This document shows positions 11,096 to 31,759 of a stretch of 44,922 nucleotides of DNA, one piece after another. The position numbers and the translations under genes are program-made. Where the stretch lies: NCBI GenBank assembly GCA_014584315.1, contig JACTNA010000023.1, positions 1 to 44,922 of the forward strand, written 5' to 3'. Each line of letters starts with the position of its first letter. The stretch's first letter is position 1. Source of the DNA: Planctomycetota bacterium. Lineage in GTDB: Bacteria; Planctomycetota; Phycisphaerae; Phycisphaerales; UBA1924. The notes under the pieces are model-generated. The model searched no databases. It saw nothing but the letters and a program-made list of their open reading frames with translations, and was not told the origin of the DNA.

Positions 11096-11099
11096 GGTG

Positions 11100-11245
11100 A
11101 CAGTGGACAGTGGACAGTGGACAGTGGACAGTGGACAGTGGACATTCGGAACGCGGGATGGATGCAGGGAATGGCGCTGCCGGCTGATTCTACACCGCGG
11201 CCTCCCCTTTCTTCATGTCCACTTTCCACTGTCCACAGTCAACGG
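11100..11245. repeat. Six ACAGTGG heptamers with an inverted partner, between queE and queD
   Basis: Exactly six tandem copies of ACAGTGG occupy 11100-11141. About 70 bp away (11216-11240) the complementary words TCCACT/TGTCCAC appear, forming the second arm of an inverted pair. One arm touches the queD start, and the other lies 10-40 nt after the queE stop. A transcript could fold across the queE-queD gap. Confidence 0.8.
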
Positions 11246-12700: not shown

Positions 12701-14701
12701 TCACGCCGCCGAGCGTCGCCCCTGGCGATCGGCCCACCTGGCGCAGGTCCGCAGCAGTTCGGCGCGGTCGATGGGCTTGCTCACGTAGTCGTCGCATCCG
12801 GCGGCGAGGCAGCGGGCACGGTCCTCGGCCATGGCGTGCGCCGTGAGAGCGATGATGGGCAGGCCGTACCCCACGCGCCGCAACTCACGCGACGCCGCGT
12901 AGCCGTCCATGACGGGCATCTGCATGTCCATGAGCACGGCGTCGAAGGGCCTGCCCTCGTTGACGGCGGCGACGGCGTGCTCGACGGCGGCCCGCCCGTT
13001 GGCGACGGTCTCGACCTCCGCGCCGGCCCGCGTGAGGTGGTGGACGATCAGGCGGCGGTTGTCCTCGCCGTCCTCGGCCAGCAGGACGCGCGCGCGCAGG
13101 CGCAGCCCGTCGGCGTCCGTGGACCGCTCGGCCAACGCGTCCGACACGAACAGCTCGTCCGGCGACGAGATCAGGTCCGACGCCTCCGCATCGCTCACCG
13201 GCAGCGTGAGCGTGAACTCGCTCCCGATGCCCGGCTCGCTGCGCACCTCGATCGAACCGCCCAGCATCTCGACGAGCCGGTTCGAGACCGCCAGCCCCAG
13301 CCCGGTGCCGCCGAAGCGCCGCGACATGGTCTCGTCGGCCTGCATGAACGGCTCGAAGAGCGACGCGATCTTGTCCGGCGCGATGCCGATGCCGGTGTCG
13401 GTCACGCGGAAGCGGACGACGCGGCCCGACTCGGCATCCCCGCCCATCGACACGACGACGCGGACCGAGCCTCGCTCCGTGAACTTGACGGCGTTGCCGA
13501 CGAGGTTGAGAAGGGTCTGCTTGAGCCGTCGCGCGTCGGTGCGGATGCGCCGTGGGGCAGGCCCGCCCATCGACCACTCGAGGTCCAGCCCCTTCTCGAC
13601 GGCGCGCACGCGCAGCAGCGAGCAGACTTCCTCGACGATCCGCACCGGCTCGCAGTCGCCCGGCTCGACCTCGAGGCGACCCGCCTCGATCTTCGACAGG
13701 TCGAGGATGTCGTTGATGACCGCGAGCAGGTGCCGCCCGTTGCGGCGGATGACGCGGACGGCCTCGGCCCGCCCCGCACCGTCCACCGAGGGGTCGTCGA
13801 GCAGGTCGGCGTAGCCGAGGATGGCGGTCATCGGCGTGCGGATCTCGTGGCTCATGTTCGCCAGGAACGCCCCCCGCGCCTCGGCCGCCGCCGCCGCCTC
13901 GTCGCGCGCCCGCACGAGTTCGCTCTGCATCCTCATTCGCTCGGCCAGTTCGTCGCGCGTCCGCGTCACCATCACGGCGGACGCGAGCAGGACGCCGCAC
14001 AGCCCGGCGACGTACCCGATCACGCGCCACCGCGCCGCGCTGATGCGCGCGATCCACTCTTCGGCGGGGAAGTCCACGCCCAGCACGGCCTCGACGCCGC
14101 CCTCTTCGTCGTACATGGGATGGAACGCGCTCACCCACGTCCCCCACCGGTCCTCGACGATCTCGTCGTCGAAGCACGGCACGCCCGCGAACGCTCGCTC
14201 CAGCGCGGGGTAGGACTCCTCGTATACCTCGCCGATCGCGGTGCGCGACTCGCGCTCGCCGACGTAGCGCCCGTCGGCGTCGTAGTCCGTCTCCGAGTCC
14301 ACGACGAGCACGATGGTCCCGTCGTCGAGGCGTCGGAAGGTGTAGACGTCGGCGATCCTGGGGTTCACCGCGAGCCATCGGATCTGGGCCTCGATGAGGC
14401 GCAGGTACGTCGGGTCGCTCGGTGGCGTGTCGAGGCGGATGTCCGTGTGCCCGAGGCGCGTCATTTCCATGGCGAAGGTCGGCGCGAACCCCTGCACCAT
14501 GGACTCGAGTCGGCGACGCTCCTCGCGCCCCGCCCACTCCGTGAACGACCACCCGAACGCCGCCACGGAGCCGATCAGCAGCCACGCCGACGCCGGCACC
14601 CGCCCGCGCCCCGGATGCCGGCGCAGCCACCACGAGAGCGCACCGACGGCCGCGGCACACGCGCCGACGAACACGGCGTAATCAAGCCCGATCCAGACCA
14701 T
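12701..14701 (-). CDS. Membrane-bound hybrid histidine kinase with C-terminal receiver
   Basis: 666 aa. Two N-terminal membrane segments (about 5-25 and 39-55), then an extracytoplasmic sensor of about 165 residues, then a third membrane segment (226-246). The sensor has the strand-rich look of a Cache/PAS-like fold (CFDDEIVEDRWGTWVSAFHPMYDEEGGVEAVLGVD). A short coiled coil leads to the HisKA domain with His285 in MSHEIRTP. The ATPase domain shows NLVGNAVKFT, DTGIGI and GGTGLGL. A receiver follows with phospho-acceptor Asp592 in LMDMQMPVMDG and Lys in SKPI. The ATG has CGGAG 8 nt upstream. No partner regulator is adjacent, so the phosphorelay target is unknown. Confidence 0.92.
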   Translation of the reverse strand: MVWIGLDYAVFVGACAAAVGALSWWLRRHPGRGRVPASAWLLIGSVAAFGWSFTEWAGREERRRLESMVQGFAPTFAMEMTRLGHTDIRLDTPPSDPTYLRLIEAQIRWLAVNPRIADVYTFRRLDDGTIVLVVDSETDYDADGRYVGERESRTAIGEVYEESYPALERAFAGVPCFDDEIVEDRWGTWVSAFHPMYDEEGGVEAVLGVDFPAEEWIARISAARWRVIGYVAGLCGVLLASAVMVTRTRDELAERMRMQSELVRARDEAAAAAEARGAFLANMSHEIRTPMTAILGYADLLDDPSVDGAGRAEAVRVIRRNGRHLLAVINDILDLSKIEAGRLEVEPGDCEPVRIVEEVCSLLRVRAVEKGLDLEWSMGGPAPRRIRTDARRLKQTLLNLVGNAVKFTERGSVRVVVSMGGDAESGRVVRFRVTDTGIGIAPDKIASLFEPFMQADETMSRRFGGTGLGLAVSNRLVEMLGGSIEVRSEPGIGSEFTLTLPVSDAEASDLISSPDELFVSDALAERSTDADGLRLRARVLLAEDGEDNRRLIVHHLTRAGAEVETVANGRAAVEHAVAAVNEGRPFDAVLMDMQMPVMDGYAASRELRRVGYGLPIIALTAHAMAEDRARCLAAGCDDYVSKPIDRAELLRTCARWADRQGRRSAA

Positions 14702-14832
14702 GGATCGCTCCGGGAGCGCCCGGACGCCCCGTATCAGGATCGGCCTGACGGCGACACGCCTTGGGCAAATGTCCGGGAACACGCCGTGCGCGAGGCGGAC
14801 CGGCTCGCCGATCGGCGATAACCCGACCGGAC

Positions 14833-15567
14833 CTACCCCCCGACCTTCCGGAGACACGCCGACCGGAATCGCCGCCCCTCCGCCCTGAACTTGCGTTCGA
14901 AGTTGGTGCCGACCAGTTCCCCCTCGGCTACCCACTCCGGCGGCTCGAACGGGGCGCGCTCGAAGGGGCCGCCCCCCCCTTCGGGCGGCGCGCCCAGCAG
15001 CGACCACCCCTCGGGGCCGGTCCAGCGCGAGAAGCGCTCCTCGTACCACGCCCACAGGGCGTCGTGGTCGGTCACCACGCGCAACTCGCCCCCCGGCTCC
15101 AGCGTTCGCCACACGTCGGCCAGGAACCGGTCCTGCACGACACGCTTCTTCCAGTGCTTGCGCTTGGGCCACGGGTCGGAGAAGTACAGGTGCACGACTC
15201 GGACGATGCCCGCGGGCACGCGCCAGCGCAGGAACTCCGTCGCGTCCGCGTGGAGCAGGCGCACGTTGGTCGGGCCGCCGGTCGCCTCGCGGCGCCGACG
15301 CACGCGGTCGGCGGCGTAGGCGTAGAACTCGCCCGCCCACTCGACGCCGAGGTAGTTCGTGGCCGGATCGCGTTCGGCCTGCGCGAGCAGGAACGTCCCC
15401 TTGCCCGAGCCGATCTCGATCTCCAGCGGGCGTTCGGGGCGCTCGAACCATGCGCGGGGATCGATGCGACCCGCCTCCGTGTCCGTGGCGATCCGGTCGG
15501 GCAGCGCGGGCAACTCCTCGCCCGAGACCCCCACCACGCCCGGCGCACAATCGAACCTGCGTGCCAT
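14833..15567 (-). CDS. trmB: tRNA (guanine-N7-)-methyltransferase TrmB
   Basis: 244 aa. It methylates G46 in the variable loop of tRNA with SAM. The SAM site IEIGSGKGTFLL and the catalytic region LYFSDPWPKRKHWKKRVVQ (about residues 134-152) are diagnostic. The C-terminus has the usual TNFERKF segment (family T.fE.k). It has a slightly longer N-terminus and a Gly/Pro-rich insertion (PPEGGGGPFE) before the last helix. It starts 6 nt after the DUF1080 lipoprotein stop, so the two share a transcript. Confidence 0.94.
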   Translation of the reverse strand: MARRFDCAPGVVGVSGEELPALPDRIATDTEAGRIDPRAWFERPERPLEIEIGSGKGTFLLAQAERDPATNYLGVEWAGEFYAYAADRVRRRREATGGPTNVRLLHADATEFLRWRVPAGIVRVVHLYFSDPWPKRKHWKKRVVQDRFLADVWRTLEPGGELRVVTDHDALWAWYEERFSRWTGPEGWSLLGAPPEGGGGPFERAPFEPPEWVAEGELVGTNFERKFRAEGRRFRSACLRKVGG

Positions 15568-15573
15568 GCCGGC

Positions 15574-16260
15574 TCAGTCCCCGCGCACTTCGCGGATGCG
15601 CACGTTGCGGAAGCGCACCTCGAGCGGGTCGGTCCGGTCGCCCACGCCGTGCACCTGCAGCGCGATGAACCCGCTGCGCGTCATCCCGTCGGTGAGGTCG
15701 GCGGCGGGCACGCCGTTGATCCAGGTGCGGATGCGCGTCCCCACCGCCTCGACGCGCATGTGGTTCCATTCGTTCTGCCTGAACGCCGCCCGCGCGTCCG
15801 GGTTCGCGCTCAGGTCGGCGAGCCAGCCGCGCCGGCCCTCGTCGTAGATGCCCCCGGTCCACGCCCGCGCCGACGGGTCGATCTCGGCCTGGTAGCCGTG
15901 GACGCGGCCGTCGCGGTAGGCCGGGTCGCTGCGCGAGCGGAACTGCACGCCCGAGTTCAACTCGGGATGCACGAGAAACTCGACTTCCAGGACGAAGTCC
16001 GCGTACTCGCGCTCGGTGCAAAGGAAGGTGTTCTCGGTGTTCGGCGCGGTGCGGCCGACGATGACCGCGGGCTTGAGCGGGTTGGGGCGCTCGACGACGA
16101 ACTCCGCGTTCCCGCCGCGCTTGACCCAGTCGTGCAGCGTGAACCCGTTGAAGAGCGGCTCGAAGGTCTCGGTCCGCCCGGACGAGCCGCCCGAACCGCC
16201 GGCGCACGCGCCCAGCGCGATCGACGCGGCGACGGCGAGGGTGGCGGCGAGGGTCCGCAT
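15574..16260 (-). CDS. DUF1080 / 3-keto-disaccharide hydrolase family lipoprotein
   Basis: 228 aa. The signal peptide ends in the lipobox LGAC (Cys19), so the protein is lipid-anchored outside the cytoplasm. The rest is a concanavalin-like jelly roll of the DUF1080 family, with FEPLFNGFTLHDWV at the front and NEWNHMRVEAVGTRIRTWINGVPAADL typical of the family. Family members cleave oxidised (3-keto) glycosides; the family is greatly expanded in planctomycetes. Substrate unknown. The ATG is preceded by TAGACT (16267-16272) 6 nt upstream, a leaderless pattern, divergent from dnaX. Confidence 0.88.
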   Translation of the reverse strand: MRTLAATLAVAASIALGACAGGSGGSSGRTETFEPLFNGFTLHDWVKRGGNAEFVVERPNPLKPAVIVGRTAPNTENTFLCTEREYADFVLEVEFLVHPELNSGVQFRSRSDPAYRDGRVHGYQAEIDPSARAWTGGIYDEGRRGWLADLSANPDARAAFRQNEWNHMRVEAVGTRIRTWINGVPAADLTDGMTRSGFIALQVHGVGDRTDPLEVRFRNVRIREVRGD

Positions 16261-16266
16261 GGGGTG

Positions 16267-16308
16267 AGTCTACGGCCCGCCGACGCCGCCGGGACGGGGC
16301 CGTACAAT
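16267..16308. promoter_or_regulatory. Divergent leaderless promoters between the DUF1080 gene and dnaX
   Basis: The 55-bp gap between the divergent starts holds two -10-like boxes: TAGACT on the minus strand (16267-16272, 6 nt before the ATG at 16260) and TACAAT on the plus strand (16303-16308, 7 nt before the ATG at 16316). There is no room for a 5' leader or Shine-Dalgarno sequence on either side. Confidence 0.55.
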
Positions 16309-16315
16309 CGACCCC

Positions 16316-17470
16316 ATGGCCTACACCGTCCTCGCCCGCCGCTACCGCTCGCGTGACTTCGACGAGGTCGTCGGCCAGGAGCCGATCGCGCGGACGCTCC
16401 GCAACGCGATCCGGGCGGGGCGAGTGGCGCATGCGTACCTCTTCTGCGGCACGCGGGGCGTGGGCAAGACCACGATGGCCCGGCTCTTCGCCAAGGCCCT
16501 GAACACGCCCAAGGACGGCGCACTGAGCGACGAGGTCGCCCAGGCCATCATGACCGGACGCGACCAGGACGTCATCGAGATCGACGCGGCGAGCAACCGC
16601 GGCGTGGAGAACGCGCGGGAACTGATCGCCAACTGCGTCTACCGCCCGATGCGCGGGCCGTACAAGGTGTACATCATCGACGAGGTGCACGGCCTGACGC
16701 GCGACGCCTTCAACACGCTCCTCAAGACGATGGAGGAGCCGCCCGAGCACGTCAAGTTCATCCTCTGCACCACCGAGGCGCACAAGGTCCCGGCCACGAT
16801 CCAGAGCCGATGCCAGCGGTTCGACTTCCGCGACATCCCGTCGTCGCTGATCGCCGAGCACCTGGCGAACGTGATCCGGCAGGAGGGCCTCGAAGCCGAG
16901 CCGGAACTGATCGCGGAGGTGTCGAGGCTGGGGAACGGGTCGATGCGCGACGCGCTCTCGCTGCTCGACCGCATCATGGCCGCGGGCGAGCCTCGGCTCA
17001 CCGTCAAACTGCTCGAGGAACTGCTCGGCCTGCCGGACCGCACGCTCGTCGGCGCGCTGATCGACGCGTTCGCGGACGGCGACGCGGGGGCTGCTCTCGA
17101 CCGCACCGCGGAACTGCTCGCCAAGGGGGTGGGCGTCGAGCAGTTGCTCGAGACGCTGATGTCGCGCCTGCGGGACCTGATGATCCTGGCCGCGTGCGGG
17201 CCGCGGACGCCGCTGCTGGACCTCTCCGGCCCGACGCGCGAGGAGGAGTCGGCCCGCGCGTCCCGGTTCGACGCGGCGGGCCTGGTCCACATGATCGCCG
17301 TGTGCGAGAGCGTGCAGCGAGCGGCCAAGGGGAGCGCGATGCCCCGGGCGGTGCTGGACGCGGGCATCGTGCGTCTGGCGATGACGGAGCGGCTGGCGGA
17401 CGTCACCGCGCTCGTCGCGCACCTCGAGGGCGGAGGCCCGCCGGGAAAACCGGACCGGCGGCGGGGGTAA
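16316..17470 (+). CDS. dnaX: DNA polymerase III gamma form (zero-frame product of dnaX)
   Basis: 384 aa. AAA+ clamp-loader subunit with Walker A GTRGVGKT (45-52), Walker B IIDEVH (Asp122, Glu123), sensor-1 Thr in CTTEAHKVP and the SRC motif with arginine finger Arg165. Collar domain III covers about 240-370. The zero frame stops at TAA 17468-17470, soon after residue 378, where a slippery site lies. Unusually, the zinc module (four Cys between Walker A and B in most DnaX proteins) is absent: residues 61-85 hold no cysteine. The ATG has TACAAT 7 nt upstream and no ribosome site. Confidence 0.9.
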   Translation: MAYTVLARRYRSRDFDEVVGQEPIARTLRNAIRAGRVAHAYLFCGTRGVGKTTMARLFAKALNTPKDGALSDEVAQAIMTGRDQDVIEIDAASNRGVENARELIANCVYRPMRGPYKVYIIDEVHGLTRDAFNTLLKTMEEPPEHVKFILCTTEAHKVPATIQSRCQRFDFRDIPSSLIAEHLANVIRQEGLEAEPELIAEVSRLGNGSMRDALSLLDRIMAAGEPRLTVKLLEELLGLPDRTLVGALIDAFADGDAGAALDRTAELLAKGVGVEQLLETLMSRLRDLMILAACGPRTPLLDLSGPTREEESARASRFDAAGLVHMIAVCESVQRAAKGSAMPRAVLDAGIVRLAMTERLADVTALVAHLEGGGPPGKPDRRRG

Positions 17471-17940
17471 GGGCCGACCCGCCGCCGCGGGGCGCGCCCG
17501 ACGAACGCCGAGCCGTGCCCCTCGCCGTGCCCCCCCCTGCTTCAACAAAGGCCGCTCGCGCCGAGCGTCCCCCGGTTCCGATGGCTCGCTCGTGGGCCGA
17601 GGTGGTCGCCCGCGCCTCGCACCGCCTGCGCGCGCTGCTCGCGGGCGTGGAGGCAGGCCCGCTCGACGCCGATCCGGTGGTGCTGCACGCCCCTGCACGC
17701 TCGATGGGCCTGATCGAGCCGCAGCGCGAGGCGGTCGAGCGGCTCATCGGCGAGGCGACGGGCAGGCGCGTCCGCGTCGAGATCCGCGAGCGAGCGGCGG
17801 ACGAAGCCCGCCCCGAGGCCCAGACCGACACACCACGCCCGGAGGTGAGCGTCACGGATCACCCGCTCGTCAGGGCCGCGATGGAGGCGTTCGACGGCAC
17901 GGTCGGGCGCGTCACGCCCAAGCGGCCGAGCGAAAGTTGA
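16316..17940 (+). CDS. dnaX: DNA polymerase III tau form of dnaX, made by -1 frameshifting
   Basis: The frame one base back continues from 17449 to TGA at 17938-17940. Joined at the slippery codons this gives 378 + 163 = 541 aa, a normal tau length. The extension starts with a Pro/Ala-rich linker. It then has a folded segment (SWAEVVARASHRLRALLAG to RVRVEIRE) that resembles the C-terminal domain of other DnaX tau proteins, which contacts the polymerase. The domain is coding by composition and pattern, so the zero-frame stop is not the true end of the gene. The alternative is a single-base sequencing error giving only the long form; the ordered frameshift elements argue against it. Confidence 0.82.
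17426..17487 (+). promoter_or_regulatory. Programmed -1 ribosomal frameshift signal in dnaX
   Basis: Elements in order: a Shine-Dalgarno-like purine stretch GAGGGCGGAGG (17426-17436); the slippery heptamer G_GGA_AAA (17443-17449), in phase with the zero-frame codons GGA AAA; a 6-nt spacer (17450-17455); and a perfect 10-bp stem CGGCGGCGGG (17456-17465) with CCCGCCGCCG (17478-17487). The zero-frame stop TAA (17468-17470) sits in the 12-nt loop. After slipping, tRNA-Gly re-pairs with GGG and tRNA-Lys with AAA. Confidence 0.8.
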
Positions 17941-18035
17941 CAATGGACAGCGGACAGTGGACAGTCGGATCCGATCCTCTCGCGCGGCGGACTGTGTGAT
18001 GTCCACTGTCCATTGTCCACTGCCCACTGCTCTCG
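17938..18035. repeat. Inverted pair of GGACAGT/TCCACTG repeats at the dnaX stop
   Basis: The left arm begins in the tau stop codon itself (TTGACAATGGACAGCGGACAG from 17937) and runs to about 17976. The right arm (about 18001-18030) carries the complementary TCCACTGTCC words. The same family lies at 11100-11245 and 31727-31759. The right arm encodes the first residues of the downstream Nudix gene. Confidence 0.75.
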
Positions 18036-31726: not shown

Positions 31727-31759
31727 TGTCCACGTTCCACTGTCCACTGTCCACTGTCC
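31727..31759. repeat. TCCACTG repeat at the guaB stop
   Basis: Four TCCACTGT-type units (first one TCCACGT) lie 4 nt after the guaB stop; on the coding strand they read GGACAGTGGACAGTGG. Same family as 11100-11245 and 17938-18035, but here I see only one arm. Confidence 0.75.

Follow-up and report, generated by a model that had tools for sequence, protein, structure and literature searches.

The window, by which we mean the whole stretch of 44,922 nucleotides analysed here, carries on its forward strand a dnaX gene that extends over two reading frames. The zero-frame open reading frame matches the Pfam families PF13177, PF22608 and PF12169 as well as TIGR02397 (dnaX_nterm), the latter with 367.8 bits at a cut-off of 250. 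The features of the locus are the following.

16316..17470, + strand: dnaX zero-frame open reading frame of 384 AA with clamp-loader domains I-III, predicted gamma (open reading frame list, Pfam, TIGR02397)
17426..17436, + strand: purine-rich GAGGGCGGAGG, predicted frameshift stimulator (sequence)
17437-17442, + strand: CCCGCC between GAGGGCGGAGG and the heptamer (sequence)
17443..17449, + strand: slippery heptamer G_GGA_AAA (sequence; the position of V_VVA_AAA in 105 scored clade loci)
17450-17455, + strand: 6-nt spacer from heptamer to stem (sequence)
17456..17465, + strand: 5' arm of a GC stem, CGGCGGCGGG (sequence and fold; stem enrichment at +6 nt in the clade)
17468..17470, + strand: zero-frame TAA, the gamma stop, inside the hairpin loop (sequence)
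17478..17487, + strand: 3' arm of the GC stem, CCCGCCGCCG (sequence and fold)
17449..17940, + strand: -1 frame extension of 163 codons plus stop, C-terminal part of tau (frame reading and tail profile)

All parts of the cassette that the first-pass annotation had placed here are present: the purine-rich GAGGGCGGAGG, whose Shine-Dalgarno (SD) core GGAGG at 17432-17436 is separated by 6 nt from the heptamer; G_GGA_AAA itself, with the zero-frame codons GGA (17444-17446) and AAA (17447-17449); the 6-nt spacer; and the stem, in which CGGCGGCGGG and CCCGCCGCCG pair perfectly over 10 bp around a 12-nt loop containing the TAA. The -1 frame ends with a stop at 17938-17940, and TDHPLVRAAMEAFDGTVGRV lies near the end of this tail. 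A shifted product would comprise 378 + 163 = 541 AA, and the lengths of the two frames thus match the sizes proposed earlier, 384 AA for gamma and, if the frame is shifted, 541 AA for tau.

Two side observations concern the surroundings of the gene. An inverted repeat of the heptanucleotide GGACAGT follows directly after dnaX (17941-18030, fold z -4.2) and recurs at 11099-11139 and 31739-31758. The genome contains 27 matches to the 13-mer GACAGTGGACAGT and none to its reversed control pattern, and the repeat looks like an interspersed family with a varying number of units. On the minus strand, an open frame of 1,665 AA (12701-17698) runs across both a kinase-like gene and antisense dnaX sequence and is probably an artefact of the GC-rich sequence.

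Split dnaX genes in the clade and their tau tails

A dnaX search of 61 genomes, including the window's own, was successful in 60; G007 gave no match, and the match in G009 extends to residue 218 only. The 80 named loci from GTDB genomes are the best 80 of 285 candidates. At class level, 146 of 150 genomes matched, and 28 added loci (14 of them copies of earlier loci) and 40 selected regions were examined. Since these regions were picked with short open frames first, the class counts are no random sample. At phylum level, 115 of 118 genomes matched, with 19 loci outside the class and 11 selected regions examined. De-duplication left 183 distinct dnaX loci. Within the available stretch, the zero frame of 177 reaches a stop, and that of six (L063, L106, L219, L226, L235 and L243) does not. 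L063 is a second, partial dnaX of genome G032 at a contig end and is perhaps a contamination.

The clade is made up of the window's family plus those named Phycisphaerales loci which group with this family; 109 of its loci have a complete site. The species are related, and counts within the clade are hence not independent. In 106 of these 109 loci dnaX is split: the zero frame ends after domain III, and the -1 frame continues behind an in-register heptamer. All runs of seven or eight As (A7, A8) and all A4 sites of the split loci are in the phase X_XXA_AAA. The heptamer scoring demands AAAA at the last four bases, and the sole split clade locus lost from it is L062 (A7, N-terminal part missing), which is counted in the 109 and the 106 and excluded from the tree and from the 105 scored sites.

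The exceptions are of two kinds. L144 and L146 encode the tau tail in the zero frame (profile matches at 7e-34 and 5e-30) and have a -1 frame stop 8 and 7 codons past the heptamer, respectively. They share the polarity of E. coli dnaX and seem to have flipped within the clade. In L104, which neighbors L011 with A7, the site is A6 and the zero frame extends over 704 AA. Reading this locus as a tau in frame was rejected; its long zero frame is probably an indel error, since the zero-frame tail has no match to the tau profile. Outside the clade, split genes were also found in two other families of the order, in L059 with GGGAAAA and in L044 and L052 with A7, and L042 and L058 combine A7 with tau in frame.

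The identity of the tail was assessed with a profile. PF12362 matches the window's tail with an E-value of 0.0037, which is under its curated cut-off. An HMM was built from 66 tails of other species with the window's genus left out, and it takes the place of a post hoc search for the motif HPLV, which occurs in 93 of 105 clade tails and in none of the other frames but was defined after the tails had been inspected. This HMM matches the window's tail with an E-value of 3.1e-29 and the tails of the congeners with 2.7e-28 and 1.5e-25; the other two frames of these tails gave no match. It also recovers the C-termini of single-frame dnaX genes, which lie in frame, in 43 of 45 cases (7e-34 to 7.5e-5), missing those of L104 and L248. 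Between congeners, the tail read in the -1 frame has a dS of 0.48-0.69 and a dN of 0.17-0.27; the N-terminal part of the gene, with a dN of 0.02-0.03 and a dS of 0.33-0.51, is under tighter constraint. Judged by profile match and substitution rates, the window's -1 frame tail is that of tau and is under purifying selection in this frame. The tau-like domain proposed for the frame one base back is thus borne out by the HMM match.

Conservation of the heptamer and its predicted stimulators

The 105 scored clade sites consist of 89 A_AAA_AAA, 14 GGGAAAA, three of them in the window's genus, and two CCCAAAA. The GGGAAAA site reported by the first-pass annotation is therefore real in the window and its genus but is not the main heptamer of the clade. 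The bases found at V are A, G and C, with no T. The A-site codon is AAA in all 105 sites, and the lysine codons elsewhere in these genes are 1,273 AAG and 282 AAA. Upstream of the site, no in-frame X_XXA_AAA occurs in 37,597 dnaX codons of the 105 loci, the window's included; the other two phases of the same stretch contain five. Of the 62 sites of the cassette, 2 vary among the three congeners, a level of conservation equalled by 3 of 1,440 mutually overlapping 62-nt dnaX segments off the cassette. None of the 14 zero-frame third positions in the cassette varies, compared to 138 of 370 upstream. In the window's genus, the gamma stop lies 18 nt past the heptamer, inside the hairpin loop; in 101 of 105 clade loci it follows after 0 or 3 nt.

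The history of the heptamers was traced on an unrooted FastTree tree of 176 dnaX proteins, calculated from the residues before the site. The 105 loci and the three exceptions are set apart from all other rows by a starred branch (support 99; 108 rows on their side). On this tree, GGGAAAA requires at least seven changes, which may be gains or losses, five of them forced by starred branches (15 tree rows), and CCCAAAA requires two. These replacements support tandem slippage because three identical bases followed by AAAA, which are required for the tandem re-pairing of the tRNAs, are kept.

The 3' end of the 16S rRNA of the window's genome, GGATCACCTCCTTTC, carries CCTCC, so the anti-SD is intact. 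Its pairing energy was computed along the upstream region, and an element was called SD-like at -5 kcal/mol or better with a gap of 4-10 nt. In E. coli dnaX, the SD-like stimulator is located a few nucleotides upstream of the heptamer. The window's best pairing with the anti-SD octamer within these gaps reaches -9.5 kcal/mol. At a gap of 6-7 nt, pairing averages -6.2 kcal/mol, versus -1 to -2 kcal/mol at gaps of 14-69 nt. An SD-like element precedes the heptamer by 4-10 nt in 94 of 105 clade loci (A7 79/89, GGGAAAA 13/14, CCCAAAA 2/2) and is absent at this threshold from 11. Among the relatives with runs of nine or ten As (A9/A10), it is found in 20 of 57 loci (split 6/23, unsplit 14/34). At a control gap of 20-26 nt, the fractions are 0.29 for A7, 0.21 for GGGAAAA, 0.00 for CCCAAAA, 0.17 for split and 0.18 for unsplit A9/A10 loci. 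The difference between 94/105 and 20/57 has a Fisher p of 8e-13, with related species treated as independent.

Downstream, 60-nt segments starting 6 nt after the heptamer fold with a mean of -28.8 kcal/mol and a mean z of -2.21 in the clade (n=105), compared to a mean z of -0.13 in the A9/A10 loci (n=57). Offsets of 0 and +3 give values similar to +6, followed by -1.06 at +9 and -0.52 to 0.11 at 14 farther offsets. A helix of at least 6 bp is present in 99 of 103 clade loci and starts at 6-7 nt in 57, these being counts without a control. The stem of the window itself does not clearly exceed the strength expected from its composition: over 81 nt its z is -1.84, with 8 of 200 shuffles as good, and its 60-nt folds range from -0.7 to +0.7. 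Both congeners have lost the outermost pair, leaving 9 bp, and in one of them (L005) a 70-nt fold favors another structure. For this reason, the case for the stem rests on the clade.

The check named beforehand by the first-pass annotation, the dnaX genes of relatives, thus came out in favor of the cassette: the in-register V_VVA_AAA is kept, the SD-like element and the stem accompany it in most loci, and the gene is split in 106 of 109.

The other sampled loci of the order and class differ in their slip sites. Runs of A9/A10 occur in 57 of 68 loci outside the clade, starting in codon phases 1, 2 and 0 in 32, 18 and 7 loci, respectively, and 5 of the 68 show no comparable run. The long tail of the A9/A10 loci lies in frame or out of frame, that of L164 being in the +1 frame. 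As a side observation, L164, L165 and other class loci have their A9/A10 close to where domain III ends, with every codon phase represented. We infer that these relatives use slippage of the RNA polymerase because of the run length, the mixed phase, the scarcity of stimulators and the precedent of Thermus. In the 30 loci outside the class, X_XXA_AAA before the stop was found among short zero frames only within the A10 run of L284. A G_GGA_AAG at codon 376 of the single-frame dnaX of L274, also outside the class, was not counted, its -1 stop following only after 37 codons. In L283 and L285-L289, from other planctomycete classes, the zero frame spans 376-417 AA and another frame contains a long open reading frame, with no V_VVA_AAA.

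Mechanism, rival explanations and lysine tRNAs

Taken from the sequence comparisons, it is very probable that the site is a -1 frameshift cassette of dnaX, at which a share of the ribosomes would likely slip back by one base, with gamma (384 AA) predicted from the zero frame and tau (541 AA) from the shifted frame. In this model, the anti-SD of the 30S subunit engaged in translation would bind the SD-like element, and the stem would resist unwinding. tRNA-Gly(UCC) on GGA and tRNA-Lys(UUU) on AAA would both move back by one base and pair there with GGG and AAA, and the slipped ribosomes would read past the gamma stop into the tau tail.

A different origin of tau would be slippage of the RNA polymerase on a run of As, as in Thermus dnaX, so that mRNAs with an extra base encode the long product. 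Thermus uses a run of nine As (PMC1088944), the homologous position holds A9/A10 in 57 of 68 loci outside the clade, and according to Antonov et al. (PMC3711429) transcriptional slippage is arguable for dnaX also at seven to nine As. However, slippage of the Thermus type calls for a homopolymer of about nine As or Ts, and the window has only four As after GGG, which makes tandem slippage of the ribosome the likely process. The clade sites are moreover always in register, which transcriptional slippage does not need, and the SD-like element and stem go with the clade sites and mostly not with the A9/A10 sites. Polymerase slippage is thus improbable for the window, though it is the least improbable of the rivals.

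Termination at the gamma stop followed by re-initiation, with the tail as a separate protein begun near this stop from the SD-like element, fits the position of that element before the stop and the finding that 34 of 105 loci have some ATG, GTG or TTG near the site when read in the -1 frame, 21 of them close to the stop. In 58 of 105 tails, however, none of these codons occurs within the first 30, in the window's tail the first is number 23 (GTG), and re-initiation leaves the in-register heptamer unexplained; we consider it highly improbable. Still less credit, close to none, is given to a single-frame dnaX broken by an error of sequencing or assembly, or to a dying gene with a genuine frameshift mutation. 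The genome is a draft of 36 contigs, but the same split recurs in 106 of 109 clade loci, which come from different assemblies, the tail is under purifying selection in the -1 frame, and the cassette is nearly invariant in three congeners. Assembly error, decay and re-initiation were rejected on the split in relatives, the selection in the -1 frame, the start-codon counts and the conservation among congeners.

E. coli has a sole tRNA-Lys. A sole tRNA-Lys(UUU) of this kind was considered here as well, and the anticodon-arm pattern of tRNA-Lys(CUU) in 28 of 30 genomes of the window's family speaks against it. Overall, this pattern was found in 68 of 80 genomes; the sister species G001 is among the family members that have it. 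These are pattern matches only and denote candidate genes. Within the family it is absent from G000 and G022. In G000, one tRNA-Lys gene (UUU) and tRNA-Gly genes with UCC, CCC and GCC were found, among them the two tRNAs named above for the slippage step. The missing tRNA-Lys(CUU) may be an assembly gap. The pattern for tRNA-Lys(UUU), found in 36 of 80 genomes, is too strict to show absence. A CUU tRNA would read AAG and re-pair poorly on AAA, a problem that AAA as the A-site codon would avoid; the underlying argument on tRNA-Lys(CUU) and the slipperiness of AAG is stated in PMC4066793 and PMC5009743. With tRNA-Lys(CUU) in the family, slippage could be lower than in E. coli.

A possible course of events, to which we give about an even chance, is that within one class dnaX first relied on slippage of the RNA polymerase (A9/A10 in any phase, stimulators being few) and later on that of the ribosome (A7 in register, joined by an SD-like element and a stem), and that several lineages then erased the A run to GGGAAAA or CCCAAAA, locking the ribosomal mechanism. 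AAA would have been kept since tRNA-Lys(CUU) would make AAG non-slippery. The direction from A9/A10 to A7 is tentative, the tree being unrooted.

Relation to known dnaX systems

The first-pass annotation had ascribed to the site the same logic as in E. coli dnaX. This holds for the tandem-slip heptamer in the same gene (A_AAA_AAG in E. coli), the SD-like element upstream and the hairpin downstream (PMC3711429, PMC5009743). Ribosomal dnaX slip sites of bacteria have an in-register X_XXY_YYZ heptamer where domain III ends, and G_GGA_AAA fits this pattern. The polarity, however, is reversed: gamma is the shifted product in E. coli, whereas tau is the predicted shifted product in the window and the clade. 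The A-site codon also differs, AAG in E. coli and AAA in the scored clade loci, with GGA as the window's P-site codon, and unlike in E. coli the tRNA-Lys(CUU) pattern is present in most of the window's family.

The reversed order itself is already in print. In the available text of PMC3711429, GeneTack identified 17 two-ORF dnaX genes from 12 genera with gamma in the zero frame, its stop near the site and tau reached by a -1 shift, as in the window. Twelve of the 17 have A7-A10, in contrast to GGGAAAA in the window and the SD-like element and stem in the clade. The genome set included two planctomycetes, and transcriptional slippage is inferred there for A10 and arguably for shorter runs. The reversed order is cited in PMC5009743, with Chlorobium phaeobacteroides as a ribosomal candidate with E. 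coli-like stimulators. The Thermus thermophilus dnaX (A9) yields two products from one gene with a slip site (PMC1088944), as is predicted for the window. The A9/A10 genes of other Phycisphaerae resemble this system; it contrasts with the window's site, where no run exceeds four As, and with the clade, where constraint acts on the register, the SD-like element and the stem. The class of heptamer has been described as well: V_VV.A_AA.R (V = A, C, G) is reported among the most efficient heptamers in E. coli, with C_CC.A_AA.G, G_GG.A_AA.G and A_AA.A_AA.G the most efficient ones, in IS1/IS3 transposase and reporter contexts and not in a chromosomal replication gene (PMC4066793).

No literature on a GGGAAAA dnaX site or on dnaX in Phycisphaer was found in a search that left most subscription journals outside, in agreement with the earlier statement that such a site had not been described. 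For planctomycete dnaX, PMC3711429 was the only paper found, and other planctomycete frameshift papers concern other genes by title. As far as these searches show, the clade-wide cassette and the GGGAAAA and CCCAAAA dnaX sites are new.

For the reversed dnaX genes, the available text of PMC3711429 and PMC5009743 does not decide in which of them the ribosome slips and in which the RNA polymerase. The repeated change from A7 to GGGAAAA or CCCAAAA, with an SD-like element and a stem alongside, serves as a natural test, and it favors the ribosome in this clade. Two lysine tRNAs were offered in PMC5009743 as possibly relevant to polymerase slippage in Thermus; the clade suggests that, with AAA as the A-site codon, they do not necessarily prevent slippage of the ribosome. 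The annotation of these genomes may, as we expect, miss tau or call dnaX truncated. Together with the A9/A10 relatives, which seem to use the other mechanism, the clade would make a change of recoding mechanism testable in a single gene.
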